NCBI GenBank assembly: GCA_018675425.1
Contig: JABGYD010000089.1
Span: 1-39,450, forward strand
Length of the DNA: 39,450 bases
DNA from: Kordiimonadaceae bacterium
GTDB taxonomy: Bacteria > Pseudomonadota > Alphaproteobacteria > Sphingomonadales > Emcibacteraceae
Direction: 5' to 3'
Shown here: positions 4,250 to 37,229 of the stretch, one piece after another
Numbering within the stretch: position 1 is the stretch's first letter
How the letters are laid out: every line of letters begins with the position of its first letter
Translations under genes and position numbers: made by a program
Notes under the pieces: model-generated
What the model was told of the DNA's origin: nothing
The model's input: the letters and a program-made list of their open reading frames with translations, nothing else
The model's database searches: none

Positions 4250-5509
4250 TTACTTTACAGCGCGATCCATAGCCATAATCCATAACATGGGATTAATTGG
4301 TTTTCCCTTTTGTCTTAATTCCACATAAAGTTTATGATGAGAATCAGACGTAAATTTTTCTAAGGACATTTGTCCTACTGGCTCACCTTTTAGTATTGAT
4401 TGTCCTACAATACCATTAATATTTTTCATGCCGGATAGAAGTGTATGATAACCTTCTCCGTGGTCAATGATCAAGAGTTGTCCATAGGAACGAAATATCC
4501 CTGAAAAAACAATACGCCCGTCATGGGGAGCAACCACAGGAGCGCCGCTATGCGTATTAATAATAATACCCTTTGCTCTTTGCCCTGTTGGAAGTAGTTG
4601 ATTATAAATTTGATAGATTGAACCACGAGCTGGCAACGCTATATTGCCTTTTGCCCGAGCAAAAGACAGACTGCTTCTTGGGGCAGATATGGAGGCGGTC
4701 GGAAAAAAGGTATGTTTATGATTTGGTTTGTCTCTAAGGTCTTTTTGTGCAGTTATAGCAGCTTCTTCACGGAGAATAATTTCAGAGGCTATTTTTTTTA
4801 TTAGGTCCTCTAAATTAATCGCTGTTTCAGCAAAAACCCTTAATCTTTCTCGTTCTTTTATTGTGGAGTATTCAATATTACTTTGTCGGCCTAGACGCTT
4901 TTTAAGAAGATCATCAATTTCATTATTTACAGTAACTAGCTTTGCTCTATTTTTTTTTAATTCAATACTCTGCTGACGCATCTCAGCCCGTATATTATCT
5001 AGATCGGATAAGTCGTTCTCAATAATGAGGGCGCGGTTTTTTAGATTAGGTAAAATTACTTTCAGTAAAGAAGTAGTTCGGAGAGTATTTAACGCATCGT
5101 TTGGCTTAAAGGCGACAATATTAGCTTTTTGTAAACTTAGTCGCTGCATTGCACCCAACGTTGACGCCATTTCGAAATTTTTTGTACTTAGATTTTTTTT
5201 TAATTCTAATTCACGAACGCGAAGATCTAATAGATTATCCTCTGCAATAAAAATATCCTCCTCAATGATTTGTATTTTTGCGGCGGAATTTATCAAGTTT
5301 TTTTGAATTAGAGAAATTTCTTCGTGAATTTCACGTGCTTGGTCCTCAAGGACGCCTGCACGTTCGGAAGATTTTTCTATTTGTTTGCGAAGGGTTTGAA
5401 GTTTAGTGGTGTTTTCTTGATTTTCTTCTCGTATTTGTGCCGCTAGTTTAGACGCAGGAATAAATGTTAAGATCAAAACGACACTAATAAATGTTGAACT
5501 AACCAGCAT
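4250..5509 (-). CDS. envC: Murein hydrolase activator EnvC (LytM/M23-like)
   Basis: EnvC is the periplasmic activator of N-acetylmuramoyl-L-alanine amidases at the division site, recruited by FtsEX (also in this window). An export signal is followed by a long coiled coil (about residues 25-250: heptads of Leu/Ile with Glu/Lys/Gln) and a C-terminal LytM domain (about 310-412). The domain is degenerate. Where active M23 enzymes have a zinc-binding His and Asp this one reads GIIINTHSGAPVVAP, and the HxH motif is replaced by HKLYVELR. This is the expected state for EnvC. The ATG at 5509 has no ribosome site and yields a signal peptide without basic residues. An in-frame ATT at 5545 with GGAG upstream may be the real start (see findings). 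Confidence 0.92.
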   Translation of the reverse strand: MLVSSTFISVVLILTFIPASKLAAQIREENQENTTKLQTLRKQIEKSSERAGVLEDQAREIHEEISLIQKNLINSAAKIQIIEEDIFIAEDNLLDLRVRELELKKNLSTKNFEMASTLGAMQRLSLQKANIVAFKPNDALNTLRTTSLLKVILPNLKNRALIIENDLSDLDNIRAEMRQQSIELKKNRAKLVTVNNEIDDLLKKRLGRQSNIEYSTIKERERLRVFAETAINLEDLIKKIASEIILREEAAITAQKDLRDKPNHKHTFFPTASISAPRSSLSFARAKGNIALPARGSIYQIYNQLLPTGQRAKGIIINTHSGAPVVAPHDGRIVFSGIFRSYGQLLIIDHGEGYHTLLSGMKNINGIVGQSILKGEPVGQMSLEKFTSDSHHKLYVELRQKGKPINPMLWIMAMDRAVK

Positions 5510-5547
5510 TTTTTTATTGAAAAATCTAAACTTTATGTTTGAAATGG

Positions 5548-7119
5548 CTAAGCTCCATCCATTTTAGACTTTATAAGACTTCGCCCAGTCATACTCGATG
5601 GTTGCTCGAGCTTCATTAGTGATAAAATGGTTGGAGCAATATCACATAGGGCACCATTTTCTAGTGTTATCAGATCACTTGAGCGCACTTGGTCATTTAT
5701 TAAAATAAAGGGTACGAGATTTGTGGTATGAGCGGTATGAGGCACTCCTGTAGAGGGATCTTTCATTAGCTCAATATTGCCATGATCTGCTGTCACCAAC
5801 ATTGAACCCCCGACCGTTTCTAGGGCTTCTCTGAGTTTTCCGAGACAATCGTCAATTGTTTCAACTGCCTTAAGAGCAGCCTCAAGAACTCCAGTATGTC
5901 CAACCATGTCCGGATTTGCATAGTTCACGACGATAAGATCAAATTTCTCGGTAAGGATTGCATCTACCAACTTATTTGTTAATTCTAGTGCTGACATTTC
6001 TGGCTTGGTATCATAAGTAGCTACATCTGGTGAGGGAATTAATATACGTTCTTCACCAGCATACAAATCTTCGTTACCACCATTAAAGAAAAAGGTTACG
6101 TGAGCATATTTTTCTGTTTCCGAAATCCGTAGTTGGTTGAGATTTTGCTCAGAAATTATCTCCCCCAATGTATTTTTAAGGGCTTCTGTCGGAAAGAGGC
6201 ATTCCATATGACTGGAAAGATGATTGGAATATTTACTCATACCAATGGCTGCGGACAAATTAATATTCTTTGGTTTTTTAAAACCATCAAAACTAGGATC
6301 AACAAATGTCGCCATAATCTCACGAGCGCGATCAGCCCGAAAGTTACTTGAAACGATCGCATCACCGTCATGCATCCCTTTATAATTTGCTATGATGCTC
6401 GGTTCGATGAATTCATCAGAGAGGTTGGTTTGATATGCATGGTTTACGACAGAAATAGATGATTTAAAATGATGTCCTGTGCCGCTAGATATTGCTAAAT
6501 GAGCTTTTATAACACGGTCCCACCGGTTGTCACGATCCATGGAGTAGTATCTACCAGAGACGGTTACTATGTGGACATTTCTCAATTCGGCAATATCATC
6601 TTCGAATTGCTTAATAAACTTAAGAGCACTTTTCGGTGGGACATCACGACCATCAGTAAAGGCGTGTATGGCAACAGGAATATCAGCTTTCGAATATTCA
6701 CGAGCTAGGGCTACGATGTGATCTTGATGTCCATGAACCCCCCCGGGTGATATGAGGCCAAGGATATGACAAGTACCTTTGGTTTTTTTAAGTGCTACTA
6801 TTGATTTTTTTAAACAATTAATATCTTTAAGGCGATCATTTAAAATAGCTTCGTCAATTCGAGGTAGTTCTTGTTTAACGACCCTACCTCCACCAATATT
6901 CATGTGCCCGACTTCTGAATTTCCCATTTGCCCAATGGGAAGGCCTACAGCCTTGCCGGACGTTTGTAAAAGGGAGTTAGGAAAGTCTGAAATTAGTGCA
7001 TCATAGTTGGGTGTATTAGCCAATTTTATGGCATTATTTTCAGTGCTCTCACGAGCACCCCACCCATCAAGAATGCATAAAATTAATGGTTTTGTTGGTT
7101 TTAAAATAAATTTGTTCAT
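5548..7119 (-). CDS. gpmI: 2,3-bisphosphoglycerate-independent phosphoglycerate mutase
   Basis: This enzyme interconverts 3- and 2-phosphoglycerate in glycolysis and gluconeogenesis in the cytoplasm and depends on Mn2+. It has 523 residues, the normal size. Visible features: the first metal site ILDGWG (Asp18), the phosphoserine nucleophile in MGNSEVGHMNIGGG (Ser68), the HIHTDGRD-type segment HAFTDGRDVPP, the arginine-bearing NFRADRARE, and the C-terminal metal site TADHGNIE. It is followed almost directly by envC (as gpmM and envC are neighbours in E. coli). A 107-base gap holding a perfect tandem repeat separates it from rlmH, the largest gap in this cluster, so an internal promoter is possible. 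Confidence 0.97.
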   Translation of the reverse strand: MNKFILKPTKPLILCILDGWGARESTENNAIKLANTPNYDALISDFPNSLLQTSGKAVGLPIGQMGNSEVGHMNIGGGRVVKQELPRIDEAILNDRLKDINCLKKSIVALKKTKGTCHILGLISPGGVHGHQDHIVALAREYSKADIPVAIHAFTDGRDVPPKSALKFIKQFEDDIAELRNVHIVTVSGRYYSMDRDNRWDRVIKAHLAISSGTGHHFKSSISVVNHAYQTNLSDEFIEPSIIANYKGMHDGDAIVSSNFRADRAREIMATFVDPSFDGFKKPKNINLSAAIGMSKYSNHLSSHMECLFPTEALKNTLGEIISEQNLNQLRISETEKYAHVTFFFNGGNEDLYAGEERILIPSPDVATYDTKPEMSALELTNKLVDAILTEKFDLIVVNYANPDMVGHTGVLEAALKAVETIDDCLGKLREALETVGGSMLVTADHGNIELMKDPSTGVPHTAHTTNLVPFILINDQVRSSDLITLENGALCDIAPTILSLMKLEQPSSMTGRSLIKSKMDGA

Positions 7120-30266: not shown

Positions 30267-32321
30267 ATGAGATATAAAAAATATTTAGTTATTGGGATTA
30301 TTATCGGTTTAATTTCAAGTTGCGATAATAATTCATCAACAGATCAAGAACTAACGACGATAAATTTTGATCAAATATCTGGCGTAAAGTTTAATGATAT
30401 GGATCTCAAAATCCATCCTGGGGATGATTTTAACAGGTATGTGAGTGGAGGCTGGTTTGCTCGCACTGAAATTCCTGCGGATAAAAGTAGGTACGGTGCT
30501 TTTAATATTTTAAGAGATGGTGCTGATGCAGATATTCGCACAATAATCGACGAAGCTGTAGCTTCTGACGCTGAGAAAGGTAGCAATGAGCAAAAGGTGG
30601 GAGACCTCTATAAGTCCTATATAGATATGAGTTCAAGAAGCGCATTAGGCTTATCCCCTATTAACAATCGCATGACGAAGATAGACGCTATTATAGACTT
30701 AGGTGGAATATCAAAATATATGGCCGAAGCAGGAAAGTATTCCTACAGCTCACCCTTGGCATTTTATATTAGTGTGGATGCCAAAATTCCAACAGAATAT
30801 TCACTTCATGTCTATCAAGCCGGCCTCGGGCTCCCAGACCGTGAATATTATTTTAAAGAAGATGAAAAATCAAAGCTGATAAGAATAAAATATATTGAAC
30901 ATATTGAAAAAATGCTGGCTCTGGCGGATATTCAAGATGGTGTAAAAAAAGCTTCACAGATTATGGATTTAGAAACAAAATTAGCCAGCTTTCATTGGCT
31001 CAAAGAGGATAATCGAGATGCTAATAAGCGATATAATAAATATGCAATAGCTGATTTTAAAAAATTACTGTCTAATTTAGATATTGATGCTTCACTAGGG
31101 ATTATCGGTGCACCAGAAGTTAGGGATATTATTATAAATCAACCAAGTTTTCTGAAAGGATTTAATACCTTGCTTACCAGCGAAAACCTGGAAACCTGGA
31201 AATTATATTTAAAGTGGTCGCTCGTTAATGATATGGCAAGTAGTTTGAATGAAGAGTTAGATAATCAGAACTTTGAATTTTTTGGTAAGACACTCAGCGG
31301 CCTCGAAGAGCAGCGACAGATGTGGCAACGGGCGACGGCTATAGTAAGTGCTAACCTTGGTGAAGTGGTGGGAGAGGTTTATGTTTCTAAAAATTTTAAG
31401 CCGGATGCTAAAGCGAGAATGGTGGAGCTTGTAGATAATCTAGTGAGTGCTTATGGGTCCAGTATAAAAAAGCTAGATTGGATGGGCGAAAAGACTAAAA
31501 TGAAAGCACTTTCAAAGCTTTCAAAATTCACTCCTAAAATAGGATACCCTGATCAGTGGAAAGACTACTCCGCCCTAGATATAGTAGCAGATGATTTAGT
31601 AGGGAATATTGAGCGCTCGGCCTTAACTGTTCATAATCGCGAACTGGCCAAGTTGGGGGGTCCAATTGATAAAACAGAATGGTTCATGACACCACAAACA
31701 GTAAATGCTTATTATAATCCAACCATGAATGAAATAGTATTTCCGGCAGCTATACTCCAACCACCATTTTTTAATATGTCTGCAGATGATGCGGTTAATT
31801 ACGGTGGGATTGGTGGTGTGATAGGTCATGAAATTGGCCACGGTTTTGATGATAGTGGTAGCCGTTACAATGGTGATGGGGCACTTGAGGAGTGGTGGAC
31901 GGAAAGTGACCGAGAAAATTTTTCAGAGAGAACTGACGCTTTAGTTGTGCAATTTGATAACTTTGAACCTTTGAAAGGATTAAATGTCAACGGAACCTTT
32001 ACTTTGGGAGAAAATATTGGTGATTTAAGCGGTTTGAGTATTGCATACAAAGCCTATAAAGCTTCGCTGGGAGATAAAGAGGCTTTAGTTATAGACGGAT
32101 TAACGGGCGATCAGCGTTTCTTTATCGGTTGGGCACAGGCTTTTCAATCAAAAATACGTGACGAAGCACTTATCAGGCAGGTAGCAACGGACCCTCATGC
32201 ACCCGATCAATATAGGGTAAATGGAATTGTCTATAATATTGATGCTTTTTATGAAGCATTTGATGTGAGGCCCGAGCATAAACTCTATATTGAACCCGAA
32301 AAACGAGTTAAAATTTGGTAG
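30267..32321 (+). CDS. M13-family zinc metallopeptidase, lipoprotein
   Basis: This is a 684-residue neprilysin/PepO-type endopeptidase. The N-terminus is a lipoprotein signal: MRYKKY, hydrophobic stretch, lipobox LISSC with the Cys at residue 19, then an Asp/Asn/Ser-rich linker; Asp at +2 might keep it in the inner membrane if an E. coli-like rule applies. The N-terminal M13 domain has MDLKIHPGDDFNRYVSGGW. The catalytic part shows NAYYNPTMNEIVFPAAILQP, the zinc site H521-EIGH525 with E522 as base, and the third ligand Glu582 in GENIGD. It ends with AFDVRPEHKLYI and the usual W. It likely degrades peptides in the periplasm. It is monocistronic; its stop directly abuts that of the convergent gene. 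Confidence 0.94.
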   Translation: MRYKKYLVIGIIIGLISSCDNNSSTDQELTTINFDQISGVKFNDMDLKIHPGDDFNRYVSGGWFARTEIPADKSRYGAFNILRDGADADIRTIIDEAVASDAEKGSNEQKVGDLYKSYIDMSSRSALGLSPINNRMTKIDAIIDLGGISKYMAEAGKYSYSSPLAFYISVDAKIPTEYSLHVYQAGLGLPDREYYFKEDEKSKLIRIKYIEHIEKMLALADIQDGVKKASQIMDLETKLASFHWLKEDNRDANKRYNKYAIADFKKLLSNLDIDASLGIIGAPEVRDIIINQPSFLKGFNTLLTSENLETWKLYLKWSLVNDMASSLNEELDNQNFEFFGKTLSGLEEQRQMWQRATAIVSANLGEVVGEVYVSKNFKPDAKARMVELVDNLVSAYGSSIKKLDWMGEKTKMKALSKLSKFTPKIGYPDQWKDYSALDIVADDLVGNIERSALTVHNRELAKLGGPIDKTEWFMTPQTVNAYYNPTMNEIVFPAAILQPPFFNMSADDAVNYGGIGGVIGHEIGHGFDDSGSRYNGDGALEEWWTESDRENFSERTDALVVQFDNFEPLKGLNVNGTFTLGENIGDLSGLSIAYKAYKASLGDKEALVIDGLTGDQRFFIGWAQAFQSKIRDEALIRQVATDPHAPDQYRVNGIVYNIDAFYEAFDVRPEHKLYIEPEKRVKIW

Positions 32322-32825
32322 CTACTGATTATTTTGTTTTTTTAGCAACTGGGATCGTAAAAAATTCCAGTTACCGTTGGCTAGGATAAGGTTTGTACCG
32401 CGGTTTGTTTCCCAATGATCTTGGTAGGCTGGTGAATAATGTAGAAACAGAAGCCCCGCTTTGACGGAATAGACTTCGGGATTAGATGGTGTGGTATAAC
32501 CTTCTGATATGCCAACTGGGTCATAACCACCAAACTGTGGTGCGTATTTTTCAGGGTTTGCAGTAAATAGCTCGCGGTTTTTTAGACTAATAAAATACCA
32601 AATGGAACCAGCCCAGGAAACTTGATATGTTGCACTCCCGCGTTGAGGTCTTTTATCAAGCTGATAGGATACTGTATCATACCCGTTTATGGCTATGTTT
32701 TTACTAGTGTTAAAGATAACGCTGTCTGCGGCATAATCCTGTTTTGTCAGATAAAAGGAATAAGCTCCCAAAGACGATATGACGATGGCAGAAATTAATA
32801 AAATATTACGGGTGTAATTATTCAT
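32322..32825 (-). CDS. YHS domain-containing exported protein
   Basis: This is a 167-residue protein with an N-terminal membrane segment (about 8-26) and a YHS-type domain: AINGYDTVSYQ, WAGSIWYFISLKNRELF, NPEKYAPQFGGYDPVG, then LLFLHYSPAYQDHW and NGNWNFL. This order is that of the YHS domain-containing (seleno)proteins. Most relatives I know have Cys (or selenocysteine) after the GGY; here it is Asp, encoded by GAC. Function is unknown; related YHS domains bind metals. It is the last gene of the etfB-etfA-hbd unit, 12 bases after hbd. Its TAG abuts the TAG of the M13 gene on the other strand (TAGCTA). Confidence 0.85.
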   Translation of the reverse strand: MNNYTRNILLISAIVISSLGAYSFYLTKQDYAADSVIFNTSKNIAINGYDTVSYQLDKRPQRGSATYQVSWAGSIWYFISLKNRELFTANPEKYAPQFGGYDPVGISEGYTTPSNPEVYSVKAGLLFLHYSPAYQDHWETNRGTNLILANGNWNFLRSQLLKKQNNQ

Positions 32826-35432: not shown

Positions 35433-35460
35433 AGTATAATATCAATTATAACTTATTCAA
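35433..35460 (-). promoter_or_regulatory. Promoter of etfB-etfA-hbd
   Basis: On the minus strand TTGAAT (35455-35460) and TATACT (35433-35438) are separated by 16 bases; the predicted start is about 35 bases upstream of the etfB ATG. Confidence 0.6.
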
Positions 35461-35495: not shown

Positions 35496-35524
35496 TTGAC
35501 ATTCTATAATCAAGGGACTACGAT
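35496..35524 (+). promoter_or_regulatory. Promoter of the tandem FAH-family genes
   Basis: TTGACA (35496-35501) and TACGAT (35519-35524) are 17 bases apart. The predicted start near 35531 leaves only about 16 bases of leader, with no ribosome site. Confidence 0.6.
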
Positions 35525-35546: not shown

Positions 35547-36389
35547 ATGGTACCAAAAATGATGTATTTTTTTAAATGTGTTTCACTGTGGCTGATTGTT
35601 AGTTTTTATGTTCCTGTGATAGGCAATGCCGCAAGCTTTGTTCGTTATGTGAATAATGGCACAACTTCGTGGGGAGAGCTAAAGGGCAATAACATTTATC
35701 AGCTATCAGATGCACCTTATCTAAGTGGATACGAAACTGGAAAGGTTGTGCTGAGGAAAGATGTGAAATTGTTAGCCCCAGTTGATCCGCACGATGTCTA
35801 TATGACCGGCTTTAATTATAAGGATCACGTTCCCGAAGGGCAAAAAACAACCTCTTATCCCGGGTTATTCATGGTTCCAGCTGGAACATTGATTGGACCT
35901 GAAGATGATATAATTCATCCTGCGGACAGTATCAATATTGGGTATGAGGCAGAGACTGTGATTGTGATAGCAAAGCGAGCAGATAACGTTTCCGTGGAAG
36001 ATGCATCAGATTATATATTTGCTGTCACCGCCGGTAATGACGTATCAGCTCGGGACTGGATCCCTGCTGATATACAATGGTTTAGAGGAAAAGGTGCCAA
36101 AGGCTTTAATTCTATTGGGCCAGCCATTGTTACAGGTCTAGATTATAAAAACTTAAACCTAACTGCGCGACTTAATGGTGAAATACGTCAAATTGGTAAT
36201 ACATCAAAGATGATCCATAATTTTGATGAAATGGTTAGTTATATATCAAAATATTTTGTACTTAATCCGGGTGACTTGATCTGGTCAGGAACTGTGGGTA
36301 CATCAGAAAAATTAAATTTAGGGGATGTTTTTGAAGTAGAGATTGATGGGGTTGGTATTTTAAAGAATAAAATTATACAAGGAAAATAA
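35547..36389 (+). CDS. Exported fumarylacetoacetate hydrolase-family protein, copy 1
   Basis: The 280-residue protein has a Sec signal peptide (basic MVPKMMYFFK, hydrophobic core to about 25, cut near GNAA). The FAH fold follows: FNYKDHVPEG with the His94/Glu97 pair, FMVPAGTLIGPED, YEAE (Glu134, Glu136) and GNDVSARDW (Asp165) as metal ligands, Lys182, and LNPGDLIWSGT near the C-terminus. Family members hydrolyse or decarboxylate acylpyruvates and related beta-diketo or 2-oxo acids in the cytosol; the substrate here is unknown. Metal and catalytic residues are kept, so it should be active. ATG codons at 35547, 35559 and 35562 are all possible starts; no ribosome site is evident. Copy 2 follows after 3 bases. 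Confidence 0.87.
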   Translation: MVPKMMYFFKCVSLWLIVSFYVPVIGNAASFVRYVNNGTTSWGELKGNNIYQLSDAPYLSGYETGKVVLRKDVKLLAPVDPHDVYMTGFNYKDHVPEGQKTTSYPGLFMVPAGTLIGPEDDIIHPADSINIGYEAETVIVIAKRADNVSVEDASDYIFAVTAGNDVSARDWIPADIQWFRGKGAKGFNSIGPAIVTGLDYKNLNLTARLNGEIRQIGNTSKMIHNFDEMVSYISKYFVLNPGDLIWSGTVGTSEKLNLGDVFEVEIDGVGILKNKIIQGK

Positions 36390-36392
36390 TAT

Positions 36393-37229
36393 ATGAGTTT
36401 TAATTTTTCAGTCTTGGGAGTGATTACGTCACTTCTCATTGTATCTTCAGCATCTGCTGAGCGATATGTACGTTACGAAGAAAATGGAATAGTTTCATGG
36501 GGTGAATTGGTTGATGGAACCATTCACCAGCTATCTGATGCACCCTATCTTAGCGGCAGCCGCACAGGTGCTAAGCATATTGAAGGATCTGTTAAACTAA
36601 AGGCGCCCGTTAATCCAAAACTATCTTTCATGACCGCGTTTAATTATAGTGACCATAAAAAAGAAACTTTTGGTATTACAAAAGATACAAAAAAGCAGCC
36701 GGGGCTTTTTACAGTTCCTGTAAGTTCGATCATTGGTCCTGAGGACAATATGGTCCGCCCATTCGGTACAACTAACTTTCATTATGAAGCGGAAATGGTT
36801 GTTGTTATTGGAAAGAAGGCTGAAAATGTTTCTCTAGAGAATGCCGGTGATCATATATTTGGTATAACTATAGGTAATGATGGATCAGAACGTGACTGGC
36901 AAGCAAGTGATATTCAGTGGACAAGGGCAAAAGGGTCAAAAAATTTTAACCCTGTAGGGCCTCATCTAGTCACCGGGCTTGACTATACCGATCTGAATAT
37001 TGAAGGACGGCACAACGGAATTAAATCACAGGGAGCTAATTCATCGGGCATGATTTTTAATTTTAATTATATGGTTCATTATATTTCAAAGTATTTCACC
37101 CTTGAGCCGGGTGATGTAATTTGGTCTGGTACTATGGGCGATACTGGTCCTATGCAACCAGGTGATACTTATTCAATCACCGTGGATGGCATTGGAACCC
37201 TTAATAGTAAATTAGTGCAGGGTAATTAA
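36393..37229 (+). CDS. Exported fumarylacetoacetate hydrolase-family protein, copy 2
   Basis: This 278-residue paralogue of the preceding gene shares the same plan: signal peptide cut near SSASA (residue 22), then RYVRYEENGIVSWGEL, QLSDAPYLSG (identical in copy 1), FNYSDHKKE (His88, Glu91), YEAEMVVVIGKKAENVS (Glu132, Glu134), GNDGSERDW (Asp163), Lys180, and LEPGDVIWSGTMG. All expected metal and catalytic positions are present. Copies differ at many other sites, so the duplication is old and the two probably differ in substrate. The start has only a weak ribosome site; translation is likely coupled to copy 1. It converges on feoB. Confidence 0.87.
   Translation: MSFNFSVLGVITSLLIVSSASAERYVRYEENGIVSWGELVDGTIHQLSDAPYLSGSRTGAKHIEGSVKLKAPVNPKLSFMTAFNYSDHKKETFGITKDTKKQPGLFTVPVSSIIGPEDNMVRPFGTTNFHYEAEMVVVIGKKAENVSLENAGDHIFGITIGNDGSERDWQASDIQWTRAKGSKNFNPVGPHLVTGLDYTDLNIEGRHNGIKSQGANSSGMIFNFNYMVHYISKYFTLEPGDVIWSGTMGDTGPMQPGDTYSITVDGIGTLNSKLVQGN

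Follow-up and report, generated by a model that had tools for sequence, protein, structure and literature searches.

The fahA-fahB locus

The window, i.e., the whole stretch of 39,450 nucleotides of Kordiimonadaceae DNA analyzed here, corresponds to contig C76 of a 2.2 Mb assembly in 94 contigs, in which seven FAH-family matches were detected. It contains two FAH-family genes in tandem, fahA and fahB, located on the forward strand and separated by 3 bases (Table 1). This arrangement, described in an earlier note on the same DNA, was confirmed by the open reading frames (35547-36389 and 36393-37229) and by the Pfam cut-offs, which both proteins pass for PF01557 (23.9 bits) as well as for PF10370. 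The fahA frame opens at 35547, but according to the alignment of the upstream region across the genus, translation starts four codons further in, at ATG 35559. Both proteins display the domain order PF10370 + PF01557 and are 51% identical over 275 columns. Their single-chain AlphaFold models were poor (mean pLDDT 56.3 and 62.1).

Table 1. Features of the fahA-fahB locus, in window coordinates.
Feature	Coordinates	Strand	Evidence
Promoter-like site TTGACA-N17-TACGAT before fahA	35496..35524	+	Scan match and conservation
fahA, FAH-family protein with predicted export signal, 276 aa	35559..36389	+	PF01557 185 bits, PF10370 28.5 bits
Signal-peptide region of FahA, predicted cleavage between GNA and ASFV	35559..35630	+	Written rule; same anatomy in orthologues
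Codon for Ile172 of FahA, at the position of the catalytic Gln of relatives	36060..36062	+	Active-site table; alignment to Cg1458
fahB, FAH-family protein with predicted export signal, 278 aa	36393..37229	+	PF01557 181 bits, PF10370 22.2 bits
Signal-peptide region of FahB, predicted cleavage between ASA and ERYV	36393..36458	+	Hydrophobic core and site; no Lys/Arg in n-region
Codon for Gln170 of FahB, conserved catalytic Gln	36900..36902	+	Active-site table

The pair is flanked by a divergent etfB-etfA-hbd block on one side and by convergent feoBA on the other (3-hydroxyacyl-CoA dehydrogenase, ETF alpha, ETF beta, FeoB and FeoA by Pfam). The position between acyl-CoA oxidation genes and feoAB pointed out in the earlier note therefore holds in the window, and also in the genus, but not beyond it, where exported relatives have other neighbors. 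Further away are found an M13-family peptidase with a lipoprotein-type leader (window 30267-32321) and a YHS-like protein with a hydrophobic N-terminus (32322-32825), both of which are close to the pair in every genus genome whose contig extends that far; the YHS-like protein was named by eye, with no Pfam match at 1e-5.

The pair was also thought to have its own promoter. The scan alone is uninformative in this regard (8 such matches vs 7.5 expected); however, the -35 region CTTTGACATTC is identical in 12 of 12 aligned genus genomes, and the -10 element reads TAC(C/G)(A/G)T at unchanged spacing in the same 12 (G003 via the upstream alignment). The promoter is considered real because of this conservation. 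A second conserved block (window 35433-35460), with a TATAAT-like element and TTATTCAA on the forward strand, looks like the divergent etfB promoter.

Predicted export signals of FahA and FahB

Export was evaluated with a simple written rule that requires an n-region with Lys/Arg, a hydrophobic core of 10 uncharged residues and a small-x-small site. FahA is among the 26 of 27 genus proteins (12 genomes) that satisfy this full Sec type I rule. The sole failure is FahB of the window, whose n-region (MSFNFS) lacks Lys/Arg; with its core and small-x-small site it passes once the charge demand is dropped, and the leader anatomy recurs in all 27 proteins. Among the controls, none of 44 proteins passed (hbd 0/10, etfA 0/10, etfB 0/12, feoA 0/12) and metW gave 1/9, while proteins with visible leaders were recognized in most cases (M13 peptidase 9/10, YHS-like protein 10/10). 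The rule was passed by 23 of 27 gammaproteobacterial relatives, the misses being one truncated protein and three without Lys/Arg before the core, by 0/1 for the row of G139, a relative discussed below, and by 4 of 63 other FAH proteins; these 4 include the third signal-bearing FAH encoded by the window's own genome. Here and in the cysteine and active-site counts, the 63 "other" rows include this signal-bearing protein (L005) and the leader-like L033.

Evidence independent of the signal rule comes from the near-absence of cysteine in the mature parts of the genus proteins, with 1 Cys in 6,745 residues and none at all in 26 of 27. The 27 gammaproteobacterial rows have 23 in 6,522 residues (15 proteins with none), and the 63 other FAH proteins 218 in 15,103; the only Cys-free protein among the latter, L033, has itself a leader-like stretch before the FAH domain. 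The cytosolic FAH copies of the window's genome contain 3, 1, 5 and 5 Cys. Taken together, the Sec-type export signals that the earlier note had read on both copies are very probable, even though FahB of the window lacks the n-region charge, and export of FahA and FahB is considered very likely; both would probably act outside the inner membrane, with cleavage and a periplasmic location predicted.

A different conclusion was reached for the mature N-terminus, which had been described as unusual. The segment RYV...SWGEL...QLSDAPYLSG corresponds to the PF10370 domain, at residues 31-78 in the FahA ORF, and cytosolic relatives start the same fold directly after Met; thus it is an ordinary part of this FAH subfamily and the signal is an addition. 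The caveat raised in advance, that cytosolic homologues might show the same N-terminus as part of the fold, applies to this mature region but not to the leader, which is added in front of it.

The third signal-bearing FAH of the window's genome (L005; contig C12, FAH domain 5108-5815) is a protein of about 400 aa of another subfamily, with a leader ending between VSA and QATK and two Cys in HACEGC. It is located on a long branch outside the group of the exported pair, which suggests that export in the FAH family arose more than once.

Conservation of the pair in the genus

The pair is kept in 12 of 13 genus genomes (its own and 11 of the 12 others), the exception being G011, which is 53% complete. 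In all 12 pair-bearing genomes the pair stands between etfB and feoB, with an extra 196-codon ORF before feoB in G001, and a third copy, FahC, occurs between fahA and fahB in G006, G008 and G010. Median dN/dS values were 0.13 for FahA (5 of 66 pairs with dS under 1.5), 0.11 for FahB (3/66), 0.07 for etfA (5/45) and 0.07 for etfB (3/66), all calculated from few unsaturated pairs and on stop-to-stop frames that include short in-frame upstream stretches. fahA and fahB are thus retained jointly and under purifying selection across the genus.

Among 86 genomes from other genera of the family and order there was no match better than E 5.7e-34 or above 43% identity, and in the 18 of them examined beside etfB there was no FAH gene in the stretch read (in L166 it ends before the upstream side). 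The etfB-etfA-hbd order is kept in all 18 without an adjoining FAH gene, so that the block looks like housekeeping, and a link of the pair with etf or acyl-CoA oxidation was rejected on this basis.

Exported relatives and phylogeny

The best matches outside the genus among 398 genomes of the phylum were found in G139 (46%, no signal), G194 (40%, signal) and G163 (38%, signal). Across 369 genomes of the class of G139, E values better than 1e-100 were obtained in G139 and G654 only; the remaining 14 hit genomes gave 4.9e-64 or weaker, with no convincing leader by eye although the rule flags two. A single member was found in each of 19 of the 99 genomes of the Vibrio-like genus of G194, and in the family of G464 7 of 12 genomes have one. 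A Vibrio plasmid record has the same gene order as the G163 locus, which places this Vibrio-like genus in or close to Vibrio. Exported relatives outside the genus are single in each stretch of 3.6-3.8 kb read; signal-bearing FAH proteins usually stand alone, and pairing was seen only in this genus. Plasmid matches from Rhizobium, Roseibium and Paraburkholderia, read singly, have no leader at the start, and 14 phage records have weak FAH matches.

In a tree of 118 rows all 27 genus proteins fall into a single group (SH-aLRT 99); a second one (99) comprises 26 gammaproteobacterial rows and the truncated L129, there counted as "other". L130 lies on a long branch. A more careful tree was made with 62 of these rows (15 of 27 genus, 26 of 27 gammaproteobacterial with L130 left out, and 21 of 64 others). 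Both groups were recovered at 100/99. The node that unites them (85/87) also includes the cytosolic G139 row, placed next to the gammaproteobacterial group (82/82). With this one cytosolic row between the two groups, a single exported clade was not recovered, but it was not rejected either (p-AU 0.37). The question of whether signal-bearing members form one clade thus has a divided answer: they cluster in two solid groups, but with a cytosolic row in between and L005 outside. Within the genus, FahC groups with FahB (97/94) to the exclusion of FahA, which dates the first duplication to the base of the genus or earlier.

Active-site residues

The metal ligands Glu134, Glu136 and Asp165, together with Lys182 (FahA numbering), are present in 27 of 27 genus rows, and His94/Glu97 of FahA and their counterparts in FahB are present in the window. 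The alignment therefore agrees with the earlier observation that both window copies keep the His/Glu pair, the ExE..D ligands and the active-site Lys; the His/Glu pair is, however, not kept across the exported family. His94 occurs in 12 of 12 FahA, and the lid Glu in 11 of 12 FahA, 7 of 12 FahB (window included), 0 of 3 FahC, 1 of 27 gammaproteobacterial rows and 50 of 63 others. The FahB lid has two forms in the genus, HKKETFG and H.LPGYEQ, the latter without the Glu of the His-Glu pair; the lid Glu is missing from FahB in G001, G003, G007, G008 and G009 (L050, L052, L056, L057 and L058). In FahC the lid takes a third form, H.GDREP.

The two copies differ at the position that lies three residues beyond the conserved Arg. 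It is occupied by Gln in 12 of 12 FahB, 3 of 3 FahC, 26 of 27 gammaproteobacterial rows and G139, and by Ile (11) or Leu (1) in the 12 FahA; the 63 other FAH rows have Gln in 35 and Ile in 4, Gln being missing in 28. Ile172 of FahA aligns with chain position 174 of the Cg1458 structure 4dbf, which we take to be Gln154 of Cg1458, assuming a 20-residue tag. The Pro after Thr249 is also replaced, by Val/Ile in FahA and by Met in FahB and FahC, and is kept in 27 of 27 gammaproteobacterial rows and 35 of 63 others. According to two studies, mutation of the Gln nearly abolished decarboxylation by Cg1458, and the hydroxide that attacks the substrate is proposed to be generated by a His-Glu dyad (PMC8398924, PMC7116474); FAH-fold enzymes can also act as oxaloacetate tautomerases (PMC10825186). 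The loss of the catalytic Gln in FahA, with its retention in FahB and in 26 of the 27 exported gammaproteobacterial relatives, is new here, and because of it the two copies probably differ in chemistry.

Comparison with known FAH enzymes

Rv2993c-like FAH proteins (3qdf, 3rr6, 4pfz; annotated as HpcE-type isomerases) are the best or near-best sequence matches of FahA and FahB and have the same PF10370 + PF01557 order, metal ligands and Lys. Unlike FahA and FahB, these chains align from the N domain on, with no added leader; they also have the Gln that FahA lacks, and the Pro of the GTP loop is replaced in both proteins of the pair. The oxaloacetate decarboxylase Cg1458 (4dbf) and FAHD1 have in common with the pair the metal ligands, Lys and Arg, and in the window also His-Glu. 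They are cytosolic or mitochondrial, whereas FahA and FahB have predicted export signals, and their decarboxylase-type Gln three after Arg is absent in FahA and present in FahB. For HpaG/HpcE, TIGR02303 is the top NCBIfam model and 1gtt the best PDB match of FahA, but the pair scores 153 and 140 bits, below the equivalog cut-off of 276; moreover, HpaG/HpcE is one fused chain and here there are two chains with predicted export signals.

Proposed function and alternative explanations

Somewhat more probably than not, fahA-fahB would be a two-gene operon for Sec-exported, metal-dependent FAH-fold enzymes that divide the labor on 2-oxo acids in the periplasm. Export is strongly supported, and the chemistry is a proposal drawn from the residues. 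Both proteins would reach the periplasm via Sec and act on small 2-oxo acids of the acylpyruvate or oxaloacetate type, with metal use suggested by the conserved Glu134, Glu136, Asp165 and Lys182. FahA, with the His-Glu lid pair kept and the substrate-positioning Gln for decarboxylation lost, is read as a hydrolase-type copy, and FahB, which keeps the Gln and in 5 of the 12 genomes, though not that of the window, has lost the lid Glu, as a putative decarboxylase- or tautomerase-type copy. The duplication would date to the base of the genus or earlier, and may have started from an exported protein ancestral also to the single-copy exported FAH of Vibrio-like bacteria.

Several observations weigh against parts of this proposal. 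Since 28 of the 63 other FAH rows likewise lack the Gln, Ile172 may point to a different reaction rather than to a loss. Both copies in the window have the lid Glu, and FahB of the window has no positive n-region. In addition, the replaced Pro after Thr249 may indicate a substrate outside the acylpyruvate class, and the genes neighboring the pair gave no clue to the substrate. A bolder version, which we hold as tentative and rather doubtful, is that in this genus of marine Alphaproteobacteria one exported ancestor gave rise to a periplasmic module of two or three enzymes, among which the hydrolytic dyad and the decarboxylation Gln are being distributed, and which would carry out an as yet undescribed chemistry of 2,4-dioxo acids outside the cytoplasm.

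FAH proteins commonly occur as dimers, and FahA and FahB could be obligate partners in an exported heterodimer that has a single function, in which each altered site is made good or regulatory by the partner. Their adjacency in all 12 genomes read (in 11 of these FahC is either missing or placed between them), their joint retention in 12 of 13 and their 51% identity are in favor of this explanation, which we regard as unlikely though worth considering, given that exported relatives elsewhere are single, so the fold needs no partner, and that three genomes have three copies. It is improbable that FahA, lacking the Gln, is a non-catalytic binding or regulatory protein and the other copy the enzyme: Ile/Leu at 172 in 12 of 12 FahA and Val/Ile at 250 would fit such a role, but the metal ligands, Lys182 and His94 are all present in 12 of 12 FahA and Glu97 in 11, and dN/dS is alike for both copies. 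A function of the pair in iron uptake or acyl-CoA oxidation, as could be deduced from the feoAB and etfAB-hbd genes that flank it in the genus, is quite improbable in view of the etf block without an adjoining FAH gene in the genomes read from other genera and of the other neighbors of exported relatives. Least credible is a cytosolic location of both proteins, with N-terminal stretches that do not serve for export, a reading which the n-region of the window FahB without Lys/Arg and a GTG near the FahA domain start (a possible alternative start) would allow, against a leader anatomy repeated across 27 genus proteins and a mature part depleted of cysteine.

Significance and gene context of exported FAH proteins

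To our knowledge, FAH-family enzymes are treated as cytosolic or mitochondrial. A literature search for an exported FAH enzyme found no report among the matches listed, a weak result that covers mostly titles and the starts of abstracts. The present work adds a supported group of exported FAH proteins, present in about one-fifth of the Vibrio-like genomes searched and as a pair in one alphaproteobacterial genus, which offers a well-defined target in the search for a 2-oxo acid reaction outside the cytoplasm. For its part, the A/B pair constitutes a natural test of which residue sets hydrolysis vs decarboxylation or tautomerization.

Alginate-lyase-like genes and a cupin lie beside the exported FAH gene in 10 of 24 gammaproteobacterial loci, with kdgK and eda in 9; the lyase at these loci is under the NCBIfam cut-off and over two Pfam cut-offs. 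In the Vibrio-like loci L089, L091, L138, L140, L141, L143, L144, L145, L147 and L148 two alginate-lyase-like genes lie upstream of the FAH gene, within a cluster of alginate type that also has cupin, kdgK, eda and a symporter. About 350 bases (L144, L148) or 980 (L089, L091) part the FAH gene from the lyase gene, and an alginate link was not adopted for the window. PF08787 lyases, the one lyase family searched for, were not found in 12 genus genomes, a weak negative in view of the silent control (0/14 genomes). In a 2026 paper on a Vibrio alginate locus, a FAH-family gene is called not apparently related to alginate use and left uninvestigated (PMC13390454). This gene, which is single and has other neighbors than fahA-fahB, is a likely candidate for the single-copy exported gammaproteobacterial FAH seen beside lyase genes.

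A siderophore-type ABC transporter occurs beside the exported FAH gene in 3 of 24 gammaproteobacterial loci; an iron link, including that offered by feoAB next to the pair, was not adopted. The other gammaproteobacterial loci with exported FAH genes had no shared neighbor pattern. In the three loci read of the genus of G464, norR is found directly before the single exported FAH gene, on the same strand and with nnrS near by (L092 9639-12110, L154 7592-10058, L155), which hints at a nitric-oxide context for the exported FAH of that genus.
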